From: Acidobacteriaceae bacterium
GTDB taxonomy: Bacteria; Acidobacteriota; Terriglobia; Terriglobales; Acidobacteriaceae
Assembly: GCA_003131585.1 (NCBI GenBank)
Contig: PKVW01000056.1
Span: 177,295-230,778, forward strand
Reading direction: 5' to 3'
DNA: 53,484 nucleotides
Positions 31,193 to 37,249 of the stretch are shown one piece after another. The notes under the pieces were generated by a model that had not been told where the DNA came from, made no database searches, and worked only from the letters and a program-made list of their open reading frames with translations. How positions within the stretch are numbered: the first letter of the stretch is position 1; each line of letters begins with the position of its first letter. The translations under genes were made by a program, and so were the position numbers.

Positions 31193-32002
31193 CTAATCCG
31201 GGATCACCGGCGTCTTCGAGGCCATGAGCTCCGTGAAGCGCGGATTTTTTCGCAGCTCGGCAAACTCCACGTCCTTGTACACGTTCTTGAGGTCCTTGTA
31301 GCCAGCTTCCATCGCCCTCTTCAAATACTCGAGCGATTGGTCCGAAAAGCCCATCTTGGCGTACAACCTGGCGACGGTGTAGTCATAGTGGGCGCGATCC
31401 TCGGGACTGGGCAGTTGCGCCTGCACGCCACTCCTCGAGGAGCGCTCAAATACCTCGGGATCTAATTCCAGCGCACGCTGGTAAGCCGCCACTGCGGGAT
31501 CAAATTCCCGCTTGGAGAAATAAGCGGCGCCCAGATTGCTGAAGAACGACGCCGAACTGTTGTCCCTCGCAATCGCCTTGTCGTACTGCTTGATCGCCGG
31601 TCCGTATTTCTTGCCCTCGTAGAGAACCGCGCCCAGATTGTTGTAGGCATCGGCGAATTCGCGATCGGAGCGGATGGCGCGCTCGAAGGATTTCCGCGCC
31701 TCCTTATAGCGCTGCATCATGAGCTCCGTGATGCCAATCTTATTCAGCAAGCGCGCGTCATTCGCCTTCTTACTCAGCGCCGCGCGGTAATAGTCGAGGG
31801 CGTCGAGATAGAGCTTGTCCACGCGCAACCGGTCGGCTTGCCGCTCCAGATCCGCCGCGGTTGCGTCCGGGGCCGGTGGATCGATGGCGCGAATCAAAGG
31901 GGGCGCAATCTGCACCTGCTCCGAATGAGAAACTTGCGCCAGTGCGGCGGTTGAGGAAATTACAAAGAGGAGGAGAATCAGACAGGTCTTTCGGCAGGAC
32001 AT
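31193..32002 (-). CDS. Exported TPR-repeat protein
   Basis: 269 residues from the ATG at 32002, chosen because it starts a signal peptide (KTCLILLLFVISSTAALAQ) and follows GGGGGT; an open frame continues upstream without support. The mature part has a short linker (IDPPAPDATAADLERQADRL) and four or five TPR units, e.g. DALDYYRAALSKKANDARLL, AYNNLGAVLYEGKKYGPAI and FFSNLGAAYFSKREFDPAV, then a C-terminal LYAKMGFSDQSLEYLKRAME unit. Such periplasmic TPR proteins serve as docking scaffolds. The partner is unknown and the gene stands alone, ended by a strong terminator. Confidence 0.82.
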   Translation of the reverse strand: MSCRKTCLILLLFVISSTAALAQVSHSEQVQIAPPLIRAIDPPAPDATAADLERQADRLRVDKLYLDALDYYRAALSKKANDARLLNKIGITELMMQRYKEARKSFERAIRSDREFADAYNNLGAVLYEGKKYGPAIKQYDKAIARDNSSASFFSNLGAAYFSKREFDPAVAAYQRALELDPEVFERSSRSGVQAQLPSPEDRAHYDYTVARLYAKMGFSDQSLEYLKRAMEAGYKDLKNVYKDVEFAELRKNPRFTELMASKTPVIPD

Positions 32003-32493
32003 ACACACCCCCAAGGCGACCAGTTCCAACGAGGCCATTCTGCCACAGTTTTCGCCGGGCGGCGAAGATTTTTGAGTCTGCGTGCCACGGCGAGTCAGGC
32101 TGCGGATTTCTAACTGAAATAAAGTTTGGGCGATCTTCCTGGAGCGGGATACTTTGCCTTGCGCGAGCCCGATAGTGTCGATCCCCCCTCCCCCCCTGGG
32201 GTCTATTGGAATCATGGAGTTAGCAGGAAATTCCCCGTAAAATCCGGATGTCAAAGAACTTAGATACTAAAATCCGTGAAACAAAGGACTTAGCGGCGCG
32301 ACGATGCGGGTTCACCCGACCGTCACGGCCTCGACCATGATCGCGCAATTTTGTGGTCGGCACAAGGTCAGATGTCACATAGGGGTTGTGGAAAATATTT
32401 GGGAGCGAGTCAGTAGAATCCAACGGAGTGTTAGCGCAGCGGAGCTACAACCATGCTGTCGGCAGCATCGCGCCCACCCTCGCAAAGAACGCG
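32003..32493. other. Intergenic region upstream of the TPR gene
   Basis: Roughly 490 bases without a convincing gene. It shows a homopyrimidine run CCCCCCTCCCCCCCTGGGG (32181-32199) and two diverged direct copies of AAAATCCG..CAAAG.ACTTAG (32237-32262 and about 32270-32293). The remainder is featureless to my reading. Confidence 0.4.
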
Positions 32494-32572
32494 ATGATGG
32501 GGCACCCAGAGTTTTGCGGAGGACAAGAAACCAAGAATCATAGGCTGGGCCACCCGCCACGACTCGTTGCCT
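32494..32572. repeat. Palindromic repeat at the 3' border of the glycosyltransferase relic
   Basis: Contains GATGGGGCACCCAGAG and ATAGGCTGGGCCACCCGCC. The word TGGCCCAGCCT (minus strand, about 32546-32556) recurs in inverse orientation at the other border, 33541-33551. Confidence 0.5.
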
Positions 32573-33584
32573 GCGATGGGTAGTTGGACGATCGGCGTGC
32601 CCGTGTGCGCCGCGCATCAGGCCTATGAATTTCGCGCATATAAATCCTAACTGTAGCCGTCGCTGCCATCAGCAATATCATGGGCTCAATGGGATGTCTG
32701 TAGGCTGTCGGCCAAGCGGTCTGCGTAACGTAAAAGACGAGCGGATAGACCATGAATAACATTAGCGCAAACACTGCAAGAGGACTCGGAACGAATAGAG
32801 TCCCCCAGGCGGCCAAGAACAGCAGCGGGATGTACAAAATCGGCCACGGACTCAACCAGAATTGAGCAAAACGCTTCAGGCTGCGCACTGCGAAGCCTTT
32901 CGGCGCTGATTGTATGAACTCAATGGCGTCGCTTCGTCGCAGTTCGAAGAAGCGAGCCTCGCCGATTTTGGGCAGTTCGCCGCCGTAGGGTGATTTCCCG
33001 GTCCAGTAATCGCAAGTTCCCGACATTCCCGCGTGATTGCCGAGATAGAGTTCCATCCCAAGGTTATCGCGCAGCGCGGGGTAGAAATGATGCATTACGC
33101 GGTAATTCCGAACATACCAAGGAGTTAACACTAATAATGCAATGGCCGCCACGACGACGGCTTGCTTTTTACGCAACGATAAGACGGTTGCAGGAACGAG
33201 TAACGCGAGCATGGGATTCAGCAACAGCATTAGTCCAGTCGCGATGCCGAGCCAAGCCCAGTTGTAAGCTTTCGGCGCGAGATCGGGAACAAAATTCAAC
33301 CAGAGAACCACCGCGAGCGTCGCGAAAGCATAATTCGACAAAGTGGTGTCCGTTAGTGCGATGATGGGCAGGACTGCCCAGGCCCAAGCGGCAAGCAATC
33401 CAACCAAGGGCGAAACATGTTTGCATCCTGCGAGGTAGATGAAGAATGCCGTCAGCCCACCGGCAATGGAGTTAGTCACTAGCAGGATGTATAGCGAGAG
33501 TCTAGAGAAGACACCGAACAGCTTGAAGATCGCCGGGGGCTGGCCCAGCCTTTCTGGATCGGTTCGCGGTCGCGGATGGTGTAA
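32538..33584 (-). pseudogene. 5'-truncated membrane glycosyltransferase (GT39/PMT-like)
   Basis: The minus strand encodes about 345 residues of a polytopic membrane protein: IFKLFGVFSRLSLYILLVTN, then eight or more hydrophobic helices, TPWYVRNYRVMHHFYPALRD, LGNHAGMSGTCDYW, and YRHPIEPMILLMAA. This is the middle and end of a dolichyl-phosphate-mannose/ArnT-like glycosyltransferase. The first 80-100 residues with the catalytic acidic motif in the first periplasmic loop are missing. The frame instead runs into a REP element (33585-33640) and could be translated from 33677, but that leader (GAPSLSLRSLERQGG) is REP-encoded. The 3' end also sits in a repeat. Probably non-functional. Confidence 0.7.
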
Positions 33585-33640
33585 GTCAAAATTCCCGCCC
33601 TGTCTCTCCAGAGAACGGAGAGACAAGGACGGGGCACCCT
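33585..33640 (+). repeat. REP hairpin 1
   Basis: TCAAAATTCCCGCCC then TGTCTCTCC-AGAGAAC-GGAGAGACA and AGGACGGGGCACCCTCG. The long stem pairs CCCGCCxTGTCTCTCC with its complement. Same orientation as REP 3 (34396-34452), opposite to REP 2. It forms the new 5' end of the truncated glycosyltransferase frame. Confidence 0.85.
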
Positions 33641-33721
33641 CGTGGTTCGGGCGTCTGGATTGGGCGGTGACGGTCAAGATCGGGAAACGAGGTCAAAATC
33701 GAAATCACAATCTAAAGATGC

Positions 33722-33776
33722 GGGTGCCCCGTCCTTGTCTCCGCGCCTTTTGCGGAGACAGGGCGGGGACTTTGAC
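33722..33776 (-). repeat. REP hairpin 2
   Basis: GGGTGCCCCGTCCTTGTC, TCCGC-GCCTTTT-GCGGA, GACAGGGCGGGGACTTTGA: the reverse complement type of REP 1 and REP 3. With REP 1 it makes an inverted pair of about 190 bases (a REPIN-like doublet) directly upstream of the RAYT gene. Confidence 0.85.
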
Positions 33777-33869
33777 TTCCTCTCCATTTTCCTATTCTCG
33801 GAAGAGGGCGAGAAATTATTTTCCGATCAAGACTGTGCGTCCCCCACCCCGGCATACGATTGAGTCGGC

Positions 33870-34466
33870 ATGCCATGGGGTCTCAAACGATTTCAGGAGG
33901 CGCGCTGTCTGCACTTTGTCACGTTTAGCTGCTACCAGCGGGCGCCTCGTCTGGGCGCGCCGCGAGCCCGCGACATCTTCGAGCAAACTCTGGAGCGGAC
34001 GCGGCAATGGTATGGGTTCTACGTCGCGGGATATGTAGTCATGCCCGAGCACGTTCACTTGCTCATCACCGAACCGGAACGGGGAAAACTCTCGCTCGCG
34101 CTGCAAATGTTGAAGCAGAATGTTGCCCGGCAGATCCGCGAGCCGGAGGGCGGTTCTTTCTGGCAGCCTCGGTATTACGATTTCAATGTGTGGAGCGAGG
34201 CCAAGCGGATCGAGAAGTTACGCTACATTCATCGCAATCCGGTACGAAGAGGGCTGGTGTCGAGCCCGGAGCAGTGGGTGTGTAGCAGCTTCCGTCACTA
34301 TGTTTCCGGAGTCGAGGGCGTGGTGCAGATTGAGTCGCAGTGGACGGCGCGGAAGAGAGAGTCGCTCGGCGTGACGCCGCAGCTCGGGCGTCAAGATCAA
34401 AACCCCCGCCCTGTCGCTCCAAAAAGCGGAGCGACAAGGACGGGGCACCCTCGGGAGTTGGAATGA
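33870..34466 (+). CDS. REP-associated tyrosine transposase (RAYT, Y1 HuH family)
   Basis: 198 residues. RAYTs are single-copy relatives of IS200/IS605 TnpA that cut single-stranded REP hairpins. Visible are HFVTFSCYQR at the first strand, the metal-binding HuH in YVVMPEHVHLLITEP, WQPRYYDFNVWS, and the catalytic tyrosine region LRYIHRNPVRRGLVSSPEQW followed by CSSFRHY. The gene lies between REP 2 and REP 3. Its last 27 or so codons read straight into REP 3, so the C-terminal tail is REP-encoded. The core is intact and probably active. Start ATG 33870; no strong Shine-Dalgarno site. Confidence 0.93.
   Translation: MPWGLKRFQEARCLHFVTFSCYQRAPRLGAPRARDIFEQTLERTRQWYGFYVAGYVVMPEHVHLLITEPERGKLSLALQMLKQNVARQIREPEGGSFWQPRYYDFNVWSEAKRIEKLRYIHRNPVRRGLVSSPEQWVCSSFRHYVSGVEGVVQIESQWTARKRESLGVTPQLGRQDQNPRPVAPKSGATRTGHPRELE
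34396..34452 (+). repeat. REP hairpin 3
   Basis: ATCAAAACCCCCGCCCTG, TCGCTCC-AAAAA-GGAGCGA (with one bulge, GCGGAGCGA), CAAGGACGGGGCACCCTC. It overlaps the 3' end of the RAYT gene and is inverted relative to REP 2, so the transposase is bracketed by facing REPs. Confidence 0.85.
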
Positions 34467-34476
34467 GCGGAAAGCC

Positions 34477-37041
34477 TCAGTGGGGTGCGTTCTGGCTGGC
34501 GTCTGGGGGCTTGGGCGGCGGGGTGGACGATTTGTCGTCCTTGAAGATTCCGGCGATTTTGCCGAAGAATCCCTTCTTCTTTGGCGGATCGGAGTTTTGC
34601 GGGTCTTGTCCGTTCGCCGAGTTCGGAGGTGGCAAGGCCTTCTCTCCGCCGCCGAAGAAGCGGGAGAAAAATCCCGCGGCGCCGCTCTGCTGATCGCAGG
34701 TCTCGCGCGGCTCCGTGCCCGCTACGAAGGCTGCCACGTAATCGTCTGGACACATCGGCGTCGCCAGGCGGTTCGTGGCCTTGTCCAGTTGCACGTCCAC
34801 CACGCCGGTGGGCTGCGCGAAACCCTTCATGTCGGAATACTGCGGCAGCGCGGCGGCCTTCTTCATGAACTCGGTCCAGATGGGCGCGGCGGTCTGCGCG
34901 CCGCTCAGCCGCAGATCGCTATAGTCGTCGTATCCCACCCAAACGACGCACAACAAGTTGGAGGTGTAGCCGGCGAACCAGCCATCGTGCGAGCTGCCAG
35001 TCTTGCCCGCGGCCGGCAAGGTAAAGCCGCGCAAGCGAACGGCCGTGTAGCCCAGCCCATTGTTGATCACGCCTTCCATCATCGTGGTCATGATGTAGGC
35101 GATGCGTGGGTCAAGCACTTGCCGCTGGTCCGTCTGGAAGTTCGCAACCACGTCGCCTGTGGCATTGCGCACCGAGTTCACCAGGATTGGGGAAAGACGC
35201 ATGCCATTGTTGGCGAATGGCGTGTAGGCTCCGGCCATTTCCAGCGGAGGGGCGTCGTAGGAGCCCAGCGCCATGGCCGGCGTCGCTTTCACCGAAGCGA
35301 TTCCCGCCGACTTCGCCAGCTCCGCAACTTTGTCGTAGCCCACTTCCTCCGCCACCTTCACGGTCGCGTTGTTCAGCGACATGGCCAGCGCATAGCGCAG
35401 CGTGACATCGCCGTGGTACTCCTCTTTATAGTTGCGCGGCTCGTAGATCTGATCTCCATACGCGAAGCTGGAAGGGGCATCGGTCACCGTGGAGGCTGGC
35501 GTGATCACGGTGGGTGAGCCGTCGAGCGCCGTATTCATCGCGGCGGCATAGACGAACGGCTTAAAGATGGAACCCGTCGGCCGCTTCGACAGAGCATGAT
35601 TCAACTGGCTGAAACCGTAATCCCTTCCTCCGACCAAAGCGAGCACCGCGCCGGTGTGGGGGTCGAGCGCAACCAGCGCCACCTGCGCCTGCGGACCCTG
35701 GGCCACGCGTGTCTCCACTTTCTTGCCCGTCTTCACGCGCCGGGTGCGCATCTTGGTGACCTGATCGTCCACCAGCTTCATGCCCATCTCTACCGCCTGC
35801 GCCGCCGCCTTCTGCAGATCCGGATCGAGCGTGGTGTAAATGCGGTAGGACTGGTCGTTCAGTTCATGTTCGCTGAATTTGTTGATCAGCGTGTCCCGCA
35901 CCATATCGACGAAATAGGGGGCGTCGCTGGCCTCCACGTTCGGCGGCGCCAGCTTCAGCGGAGAGGCCTTGGCCTTATCCGCCTGTTCCCGGGTAATGGC
36001 GTGGGTTTCCACCATCGAATCCAGCACCAGGTTGCGCCGCTCCAGGGCGCGCTCGGGATGGCGATAGGGCGACAACCGGCTCGGCCCCTGGATGATGCCG
36101 GCCAGCAACGCCGCCTCCGGCAGCGTGATGTCCTTCAAGTCCCTGTTGAAATACGCTCGCGATGCCTCGCCAAATCCGCCAATGGCGAACGATCCGCGCT
36201 GCCCCAGGTTTACCCAGTTGCCGTAGAACTCGAAAATCTGCCGCTTGCTGAACTTTTGTTCCAGTTCCTCGGCGATCAGCATCTCCGTCAGCTTGCGCCG
36301 AACGGTCTTTTCCGGCGTCAGGAAGAAGCCGCGCGAAAGCTGCATGGTGATGGTCGAACCGCCCTGCTCGTGCCGTTGCCGCGTCAAATCGATCCATCCC
36401 GCTTCAAACATGCGGATGAAGTTCACCCCGCTGTGCTCGAAGAAACGCCGGTCTTCGATGGCCAGCACCGCGTCGACCATCACTTTAGGAATGTCGGTGT
36501 ACTTCACCACCTGGCGCTTGGAGCGCTGTTCGGAGTCGAACAACGCGGTCACCAGTTGAGGTTCCAACTCGTAGGCGGAAAGATCGTTGCCCTGGCTAAC
36601 GATGCGGCCAACCCGGCCATCGTGAATCGTGATGCGGGCCGCTTCCGGACTGTGGTAGGAATCCGGCCCCGGCGTGATCTCGATCCCGTCGCTTACGAAG
36701 CGAAAGCTGCCAAGCTGCGACTGGCCGTCCTTATCGGAGTAGCCGGCCCGGCGCAGCAACGCCGCGATTTCCCTGGCGTCCGCCTTGTCGCCGTCATGCA
36801 CTGTTCGGGGCAGGGCATAGATTTTGGCCGAATTGCTGAAGACCGGCGACCGGAAGCGTTGCGCAATGATGCGGTCGTACTTGATGTAGAAGTAGCAAAC
36901 GAACCCGCCCACGCCGATCGCCGCCACCAGAAAAACGACCAGCGCGGCTCGAATTACCGGATCGCGCGGCAGGCCGCGCCATCTCTTGCCGCCTTTGCCT
37001 CCGCCGCTTCCACCCTTAGGAATCTTGATCTTAACGGCCAT
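34477..37041 (-). CDS. Class A penicillin-binding protein (PBP1b-like)
   Basis: 854 residues from the ATG at 37041, which gives the usual basic leader and one membrane anchor (AALVVFLVAAIGVGGFVCYF). Then come a UB2H-like domain (ALPRTVHDGDKADAREIAAL), a GT51 glycosyltransferase domain (EDRRFFEHSGV with catalytic Glu; QGGSTITMQLSRGFFL), and a transpeptidase domain with SxxK (TGSIFKPF), SxN (SLNNATVK) and KTG (AAGKTGSSHDGWFAGY). A Pro/Lys-rich C-terminal tail follows. It polymerises and cross-links peptidoglycan on the outer face of the inner membrane. The UB2H element suggests control by an outer-membrane lipoprotein as in E. coli PBP1b. An upstream frame start would add 60 residues and is unlikely. 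Confidence 0.94.
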   Translation of the reverse strand: MAVKIKIPKGGSGGGKGGKRWRGLPRDPVIRAALVVFLVAAIGVGGFVCYFYIKYDRIIAQRFRSPVFSNSAKIYALPRTVHDGDKADAREIAALLRRAGYSDKDGQSQLGSFRFVSDGIEITPGPDSYHSPEAARITIHDGRVGRIVSQGNDLSAYELEPQLVTALFDSEQRSKRQVVKYTDIPKVMVDAVLAIEDRRFFEHSGVNFIRMFEAGWIDLTRQRHEQGGSTITMQLSRGFFLTPEKTVRRKLTEMLIAEELEQKFSKRQIFEFYGNWVNLGQRGSFAIGGFGEASRAYFNRDLKDITLPEAALLAGIIQGPSRLSPYRHPERALERRNLVLDSMVETHAITREQADKAKASPLKLAPPNVEASDAPYFVDMVRDTLINKFSEHELNDQSYRIYTTLDPDLQKAAAQAVEMGMKLVDDQVTKMRTRRVKTGKKVETRVAQGPQAQVALVALDPHTGAVLALVGGRDYGFSQLNHALSKRPTGSIFKPFVYAAAMNTALDGSPTVITPASTVTDAPSSFAYGDQIYEPRNYKEEYHGDVTLRYALAMSLNNATVKVAEEVGYDKVAELAKSAGIASVKATPAMALGSYDAPPLEMAGAYTPFANNGMRLSPILVNSVRNATGDVVANFQTDQRQVLDPRIAYIMTTMMEGVINNGLGYTAVRLRGFTLPAAGKTGSSHDGWFAGYTSNLLCVVWVGYDDYSDLRLSGAQTAAPIWTEFMKKAAALPQYSDMKGFAQPTGVVDVQLDKATNRLATPMCPDDYVAAFVAGTEPRETCDQQSGAAGFFSRFFGGGEKALPPPNSANGQDPQNSDPPKKKGFFGKIAGIFKDDKSSTPPPKPPDASQNAPH

Positions 37042-37217
37042 GTTTGGATTCGTACACCCGCCCCAAAAAACTGCCTGCCGATCAGACGATGGGGCGCGCC
37101 AAAGGTTTGAACCGCCTGCTCGTTCCTTCGCCGGCCTCCGTGCCCCGGTTTTCACGACTGCGAAATGCCAGGATGCGTTTTCCCATTGTACCGCTGTGCC
37201 CGCAAACCACGCCCGCA

Positions 37218-37249
37218 ACAAAAAGAGACCCGCAGTTTATGCGGGTCTC
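37218..37249 (-). terminator. Intrinsic terminator of the lactonase-like gene
   Basis: On the minus strand the perfect stem GAGACCCGCA-TAAAC-TGCGGGTCTC is followed by TTTTTGTT. It lies about 50 bases beyond the stop at 37301. Confidence 0.85.

Follow-up and report, generated by a model that had tools for sequence, protein, structure and literature searches.

The window (the whole stretch of 53,484 nucleotides analysed here; G000:C28:177295-230778 of a 3.93-Mb assembly in 75 contigs) contains a RAYT/TnpAREP transposase gene flanked by REP hairpins and, beside it, an additional REP copy, a truncated glycosyltransferase frame, two accessory motifs and a degraded REP. These features lie between the genes for a TPR-repeat protein and a PBP1A-type penicillin-binding protein (Table 1). 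PBP1A was named by its Pfam match; TPR, and the KdsC and Lhr mentioned below, were named by recognition and are presumably these proteins.

Table 1. Features of the RAYT locus and its flanks (positions in the window)
Feature	Position	Strand	Remarks
TPR-repeat protein	31193..32030	-	Left flank; ORF runs to 32254, start codon not fixed
Dispersed repeat, about 215 bp	32178..32415	.	Beside the inserted island, upstream of TPR; common to close relatives
REP4	32473..32507	- (foot strand)	Degraded REP, CGCAAGG-type subfamily
Accessory motif GGCTGGGCCACCCGCC	32543..32558	+	3' end of the glycosyltransferase fragment
Glycosyltransferase fragment	32559..33534	-	Inside ORF 32538-33677; without about 100 N-terminal residues of homologues
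Accessory motif GGCTGGGCCAGCCCCC	33535..33550	-	Abuts the fragment; own REP foot absent in the usual place
REP1	33583..33639	- (foot strand)	Extra copy, facing REP2 inward
REP2	33722..33778	+ (strand with 5' GGGTGC foot)	Left end of the REP-RAYT-REP unit
RAYT/TnpAREP transposase, 198 aa	33870..34466	+	PF01797, NF047646 and 4er8 matches
REP3	34397..34453	- (foot strand)	Right end of the unit; overlaps the RAYT gene
PBP1A-type penicillin-binding protein	34477..37221	-	Right flank; Pfam; ancestral neighbour of TPR

The transposase reading frame was intact and carried H61-V-H63, W98-Q99 and Y119, in agreement with an earlier note on this DNA, which had described an intact HuH transposase. The protein matched Pfam PF01797 with 40.9 bits and scored 103.1 bits against NCBIfam NF047646 (REP_Tyr_transpos), above the cut-off of 80. 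E. coli TnpAREP (4er8) was matched with an E value of 1.8e-7 by the protein alone and of 2.8e-16 with a 26-row profile, in which H61, H63 and Y119 were invariant. These matches, together with the hairpins on both sides, supported the proposed association of a RAYT with cognate REPs. The class 2 TnpAY1 signature, Y---NP, was found as YIHRNP at residues 119-124, and the motifs of the protein are thus EHVH, WQ and YIHRNP. This combination did not fit subclass 2.2, the E. coli type (DHLH, WE, YIHYNP), or subclass 2.6 (Bertels group 5; NH[LIV]H, WQ, YIH[QN]NP, atypical hairpins). Assignment to IS200/IS605 (subclass 1.1, Y---Q) was also rejected: NF033573 gave 28.1 bits against a cut-off of 55, the window protein has Y---NP, and instead of near-identical copies the nearest relative within the same genome was 60% identical. 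The canonical GT[AG]G foot published for REPs (PMC6006769, available excerpts) was absent from the hairpin base of the window unit, where the foot is GTGC. Since the same source accepts a TnpAY1 subclass without GT[AG]G (2.6), membership in class 2 stands, whereas the canonical REP type does not.

REP1, REP2 and REP3 are 57-nt copies of one hairpin in the alternating orientation previously described; REP1 and REP3 were 88% identical in direct alignment, and REP2 is the inverse of both at 82-83% identity. The transposase 3' end is REP-coded as had been claimed, but over 23 codons (residues 176-195, encoded by REP3, plus a three-residue tail) and not about 27. REP1 and REP2 do form an inverted doublet, which faces inward, with its GGGGCACCC ends pointing at each other. 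The term REPIN-like holds only to that extent and not for a REPIN as a mobile doublet present at several places, since the window hairpin was found nowhere else in the genome. In all three REPs the foot strand was predicted to fold more stably than its complement, a difference that is only suggestive of strand-specific ssDNA cleavage. A search of Rfam with positions 31900-34600, which include the REPs and the 215-bp repeat, gave no match at E values up to 1.

Within the 3.93-Mb genome the full window-type hairpin was found three times, always in the window, and the backward pattern was not found. The 18-nt arm-plus-foot sequence, with up to three mismatches, had 33 matches as opposed to 5 for the reversed sequence; they are dispersed and represent subfamilies with differing stems, a few of the three-mismatch ones being without a REP-like hairpin. 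Three intact and about three damaged copies, the latter elsewhere, make up the genomic population of the window stem, and because this cognate population is tiny, recent spread of the window REP in this genome is not evident. For the earlier note, a REP sequence present only here would have refuted the link between RAYT, REP and gene loss; the exact stem is indeed almost confined to the locus, but the class is not. REPs with the same foot flank three other RAYT genes (C35:62646, C28:73083 and the decayed C50:57081), and a family search of the genome gave 14 Y1 matches. Among the REPs listed, five other inverted doublets less than 300 bp apart were all outward-facing, and one further pair lay on the same strand. 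Within 10 kb, the region G000:C50:47672-57492 contains the decayed RAYT and a total of nine REPs, four of which are paired in two outward doublets.

PBP1A, TPR, KdsC and Lhr form a block in relatives. Of 14 relatives whose PBP1A locus was read, 12 have TPR next after PBP1A, and in three of these 12 PBP1A is 85-90% identical to that of the window. Neither a glycosyltransferase nor a RAYT occurred in the stretches read at any of the 14. Among the first 11 relatives, TPR lay beside PBP1A in nine, one had KdsC and Lhr without a TPR match, and one (G006) had none of the three; in the latter (L191; PBP1A 88% identical) the region downstream of PBP1A is rearranged, and TPR, KdsC and Lhr were not within 14 kb. 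The distance from the PBP1A stop codon to the TPR match was 147-379 bp in eight relatives versus about 2.4 kb in the window. Measured by match ends, the PBP1A-TPR gaps of the three close relatives were about 0.55, 0.58 and 1.3 kb; the 215-bp repeat was present in all three, and the glycosyltransferase, the RAYT and this REP foot were absent. Copies of the repeat 91-94% identical to that of the window were located at G000:C74:21875 and C15:20886, and many copies of about 71-88% were found in genomes of the same genus. Ten aligned copies showed a mean column identity of 72%, with strongly conserved blocks.

Given the adjacency of PBP1A and TPR in relatives that have neither glycosyltransferase nor RAYT, about 2.1 kb (roughly 32400-34460) was inserted between the two genes. 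The order of the insert from the TPR side is REP4, glycosyltransferase fragment, REP1, REP2, RAYT and REP3; its exact junction is not fixed, as the spacer sequence varies in the relatives read. In the relative with the 1.3-kb spacer (L206, 560-1500), a different repeat and a frame that we take to be GIY-YIG-like lie between PBP1A and TPR, and this spacer may thus be especially prone to insertions. Neither PBP1A nor TPR was found in the flanks (1.5-3 kb, some reaching contig ends) of the other RAYT or glycosyltransferase loci compared.

The glycosyltransferase fragment, which is presumably of GT-C type, had no match in Pfam or NCBIfam. Its frame (32538-33677, minus strand) begins with a TTG that is a start only as given by the ORF listing. 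The family homologues listed aligned from frame residue 40 at the earliest and nearly all from residues 47-50, and twelve aligned homologues had about 100 additional N-terminal residues. REP1 encodes residues 13-32 of the frame, whereas residues 43-48 and 374-379 are encoded by the repeat motif GGNTGGGCCASCCSCC. The N-terminal loss noted earlier was therefore real, but the homologous part is adjoined by the accessory motif at 33535-33550 and not by REP1, which had been regarded as the new 5' end. The GGNTGGGCCASCCSCC-type motif had two matches in the window versus 0.13 expected, and 24 copies genome-wide versus 4 reversed. For 18 of these copies the foot of a listed REP was located 18-50 nt away, with the motif on its far side. 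REP and motif look as if they were one unit of about 100 bp. The fragment is bounded by repeats on both sides.

The best homologue of the fragment among the 150 family genomes was 52% identical (L079) and lay at another location, and the matches listed for its own genome were only 30-34% identical, so that no resident donor was seen. A DNA search with positions 32030-33600 in 120 relatives and the own genome listed only repeat parts, the upstream part of TPR and, from the glycosyltransferase part, a single piece of 32 bases; as three candidates per genome were scored, this search does not demonstrate absence, and the protein search is relied upon instead. In another genus (L059/L082, G105:C98), a RAYT has a full-length glycosyltransferase frame at a distance of about 0.9 kb, probably by chance; the frame shares 35% identity with the window fragment.

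RAYT relatives were present in 129 of the 150 family genomes. The 83 loci compared gave 57 unique near-full RAYTs. Of these, 39 had an outward-facing foot upstream, 43 downstream and 32 on both sides, and an inward-facing foot was found upstream of 9 and downstream of 12. The reversed motif was never found outward on either side, and inward it occurred once, downstream. Left and right stem arms of the same locus had an identity of 0.816 versus 0.468 after shuffling (maximum of 2000 shuffles, 0.566; n=32), and RAYT identity was correlated with stem identity (r=0.564; reached in 0 of 5000 permutations; n=52). Stems differ between RAYTs yet agree to the left and right of each. Within flanks of 1.5 kb or less, the foot motif was detected at 27 of 30 family RAYT loci, at 5 of 59 other family loci and at none of 30 RAYT loci outside the family.

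The class pattern GGGTGCCCC-RYCC...GGGYGGGG was found in 79 of the 150 family genomes, with no reversed match. Among 297 genomes sampled from the phylum, 14 of the 31 that belong to the family had the pattern, as did 1 of the other 266, with one reversed match among the 297; by eye, the sequence in the sole outside genome was not clearly a hairpin. RAYT matches outside the family were weak (48 of 80 genomes; best E value, 2.5e-15), and the restriction of the foot class to the family may for this reason mark a lineage boundary and not a jump in foot type. A species-wide scan (one genome per species, close relatives only) gave 53 loci, all in records titled as Acidobacteria or one of its genera. 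Edaphobacter lichenicola and a Candidatus Sulfotelmatobacter MAG are among the named organisms in which this foot lies next to the RAYT. The hairpin class is a trait of this acidobacterial family, and the exact window hairpin is rare. The suggestion of an acidobacterial version was accordingly borne out and extended to the family. The accompanying premise that RAYT/REP systems are known mainly from gamma-proteobacteria needs qualification: published RAYT-like genes extend beyond this group, PMC6006769 reporting them from over 25% of species and counting Solibacter in its class 3, and PMC3733652 listing TIRYTs of Acidobacteria. Among the best matches listed from the open-licence literature no acidobacterial GTGC-foot system was found, and a text search for the foot letters gave no paper related by title among the 15 listed of 161.

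Several further features of the family units were recorded. The reading frame runs through the downstream REP in 25 of 45 RAYTs, and 20 of the 25 share a frame; PRP...TGHP is an example of the resulting tails. Over all 45 RAYTs with a downstream REP, 28 shared one frame; the cases are not independent, and selection is not claimed. At L072 (probably the same place as L129), a REP array with a period of about 93 bp lies upstream of a RAYT with a GGTTG foot. In 103 hairpins, G.T pairs outnumbered A.C ones overall (85 versus 48) and at positions 5-6 (57 versus 1, including 53 T.G at position 6), whereas outside these positions the counts were 28 and 47, with 26 of the 47 at the outermost pair; this asymmetry was set aside as proof owing to its mixed signal across hairpin positions.

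Foot type was compared with protein sequence in 155 unique RAYTs, 143 of which had an assigned foot. Read from the stem base, the feet were GTGC (115), GTGG (16), TTGC (10) and CTGC (2), with none assigned in 12. In labelling, the direct motif was given priority over the accessory motif, which at a few loci is otherwise mistaken for the foot (CTGG and some GTGG); residues 106 and 20 had already been the top columns before this cleaning (0.315 and 0.322). A foot GGTG beside CCCC was considered and rejected: many hairpins lack the outermost C-G pair, and GGGCCACC is what sister RAYTs have, and therefore a stem CCC... with foot GTGC was adopted.

Residue 106 accounted for 0.393 of 0.416 bits of foot base 1, the best of 160 columns (next, 0.207), and residue 20 for 0.379 of 0.506 bits of foot base 4, again the best of 160 (next, 0.21). 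N106 was present in 126 of 131 RAYTs with G at base 1, the remaining five having another residue, and in none of the 12 others (P in eight, V in three, L in one); S20 was present in 126 of 127 RAYTs with C at base 4 versus 2 of 16 with G. The residue 106 association was first found in 59 RAYTs. In the 92 RAYTs with assigned foot fetched afterwards, N106 occurred in 82 of 87 with a G foot versus 0 of 5 with a T foot, and S20 in 78 of 79 with a C foot versus 1 of 13 with a G foot. Null models made of random unions of disjoint clades, matching in number and size, reached the observed association in 0 of 2000 cases for either residue. On the best tree there were 4 changes for base 1 and 9 for base 4. 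With a tree built without columns 106 and 20, a mean of 2.0 of 2 supported pairs for base 1 and 2.9 of 4 for base 4 changed in the expected direction, with 0.0 in the opposite one, and the crosswise residue-base pairings changed in the same direction in 0.0 cases on average; these independent contrasts are too few for significance alone. In the profile alignment, S20 of the window corresponds to N19 of E. coli TnpAREP and N106 to A102. The available text of PMC8266576 places the E. coli contacts to GTAG in beta1, around beta4 and at the C-terminus, and both columns thus fall into two of these regions.

These associations would fit a specificity code, to which we give an even chance, in which residue 106 (near beta4) selects foot base 1 and residue 20 (beta1) selects base 4. 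In this code N at residue 106 would go with G, P or V with T, and L or V with C, while S at residue 20 would go with C, and mostly C, T or G with G. If the code is true, the guide has shifted to GTGC from GT[AG]G, and under the published guide rule the cut site would be expected to shift from CT/CC to GC or GA. Shared ancestry of RAYT clades, operating without any contact, could alternatively have produced the association, and the small number of independent switches (the 4 and 9 tree changes, with 2 and 4 supported pairs) is in its favour. However, the clade-structured nulls, the lack of opposite contrasts and of same-way changes in the crosswise controls, and the position of both columns in published GTAG-contact regions count against ancestry alone, which we consider somewhat unlikely.

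GC-rich hairpins are common near gene ends, and the window hairpins could on that account be transcription terminators or mRNA stabilisers to which the nearby transposase is incidental. Their properties go with the RAYT instead: the outward orientation, the left-right stem identity and the foot-residue association do so, the foot class is far rarer at other family loci than at RAYT loci, and the flanking genes of the window are not seen at the other RAYT loci compared. We therefore regard this explanation as extremely improbable. The earlier note had further proposed that insertion of the RAYT/REP may have broken a glycosyltransferase gene already resident there, with loss of its N-terminal part, and REP1 and a second repeat do stand in frame in place of the N-terminal residues. 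Nevertheless, the uninterrupted glycosyltransferase that relatives were expected to carry was present at none of their 14 PBP1A loci, which mostly pass directly to TPR; the missing N-terminus is not beyond the RAYT, where the PBP1A stop codon begins 24 bases past REP3; and the best family relative of the fragment lies elsewhere. Gene breakage thus appears largely refuted, and is very improbable, by the comparison of these sequences; the fragment more probably came with the insert or was trapped inside it than was a native gene broken in place. It is also conceivable that RAYT/REP activity captures host gene fragments and mobilises them, the glycosyltransferase piece being a composite passenger between inward-facing REP units. 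The fragment ends exactly at accessory motifs on both sides, motifs of this kind mostly follow a REP foot in the genome, no resident donor was seen, and its neighbours are not shared by the other loci compared. However, this is a single case, the right-hand motif has no REP foot in the usual place, and the same picture would arise if two repeats had inserted independently into a gene that was acquired horizontally and was decaying; capture is in our view fairly unlikely.

The explanation that we consider highly probable overall is that of a REPtron in an intergenic insert of about 2.1 kb, with the glycosyltransferase fragment as a carried or caught piece and with two probable foot-reading residues. 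It builds on the observed architecture, synteny, class distribution, stem matching and residue-base association; binding, cutting, the direction of recognition and trapping of the fragment are the steps that it would add. REP2, RAYT and REP3 make up the REPtron, in which the gene of an ssDNA HuH/Y1 nuclease is enclosed by a pair of inverted cognate hairpins. If it acts like E. coli TnpAREP, the enzyme would bind the folded foot strand (5'-GGGTGC-hairpin) and cut beside the hairpin through Tyr119, and the REPs would then be re-joined or copied by it. Its lineage, observed in this acidobacterial family only, has a GTGC foot in most cases, and its stems change fast and are specific to each RAYT. 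Foot base 1 is probably read by residue 106 and base 4 by residue 20. The truncated glycosyltransferase is a piece of a gene that the REP-rich insert brought along or trapped. According to the available parts of PMC8266576, guide tests in Marinomonas led to cutting at CC with GTGG and at GA and GT with GTAC, but a foot-directed change of cut site failed in two other systems. By this guide rule the GTGC foot would select GC or GA. In the same source, the final two bases of the foot are reported to be contacted by the C-terminal tail of E. coli TnpAREP, and activity rose when 13 residues were removed. The REP-coded tails of the acidobacterial RAYTs are at this same end of the protein.

The gene-breakage picture is corrected by these results, since the unit is located between genes, in a spacer that is variable among relatives. 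The biochemistry of RAYT-REP recognition and of the diversification of REP classes comes from three systems in the available text of PMC8266576. In this family, more than a hundred enzymes can be paired with their natural repeats, which differ in stem and have four types of foot; together with the two candidate residues, these pairs make RAYT specificity and the guide model directly testable.

As far as the published excerpts allow comparison, the E. coli REPtron Ec (TnpAREP, 4er8; PMC8266576, PMC6006769) resembles the window unit in its HuH/Y1 nuclease, its flanking inverted REP hairpins, its tetranucleotide foot and its long stem with a bulge. The two differ in the foot, which is GTAG in E. 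coli and GTGC (or GTGG, TTGC or CTGC) in acidobacterial RAYTs, in the Y motif, and in the GTAG-contact residues E100, H101 and R104, which align with D, F and W in the window RAYT. The Stenotrophomonas/Pseudomonas systems (PMC2817692) share the REP-rayt-REP unit, RAYT-REP co-evolution, and doublets and clusters elsewhere in the genome; in the accessible sections of that paper, RAYTs with abundant REPs are confined to gammaproteobacteria and have a GT(A/G)G head, unlike the present system with its acidobacterial family and the low copy number of the window stem. The acidobacterial TIRYTs and TIRtrons (PMC3733652) likewise comprise Y1 transposase genes flanked by inverted repeats, which are sometimes a repeated DNA family. 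Compared by the published motif only, however, the TIR motif GGGGWSAS misfits the window GGGGCACC at W, and 20 of 26 TIRYTs fall into subclass 2.1 with an HTH tail in the excerpts of PMC6006769, whereas the window protein has no further Pfam domain; some overlap with the TIRYTs is conceivable. The Solibacter class 3 TnpAY1 (PMC6006769, same excerpts) is acidobacterial as well and has hairpins in high copy, but these have a CnGA foot, and its Y----Q motif contrasts with Y---NP of the window protein. The window unit is thus a genuine REPtron, and its RAYT belongs to an acidobacterial lineage whose foot is non-canonical.
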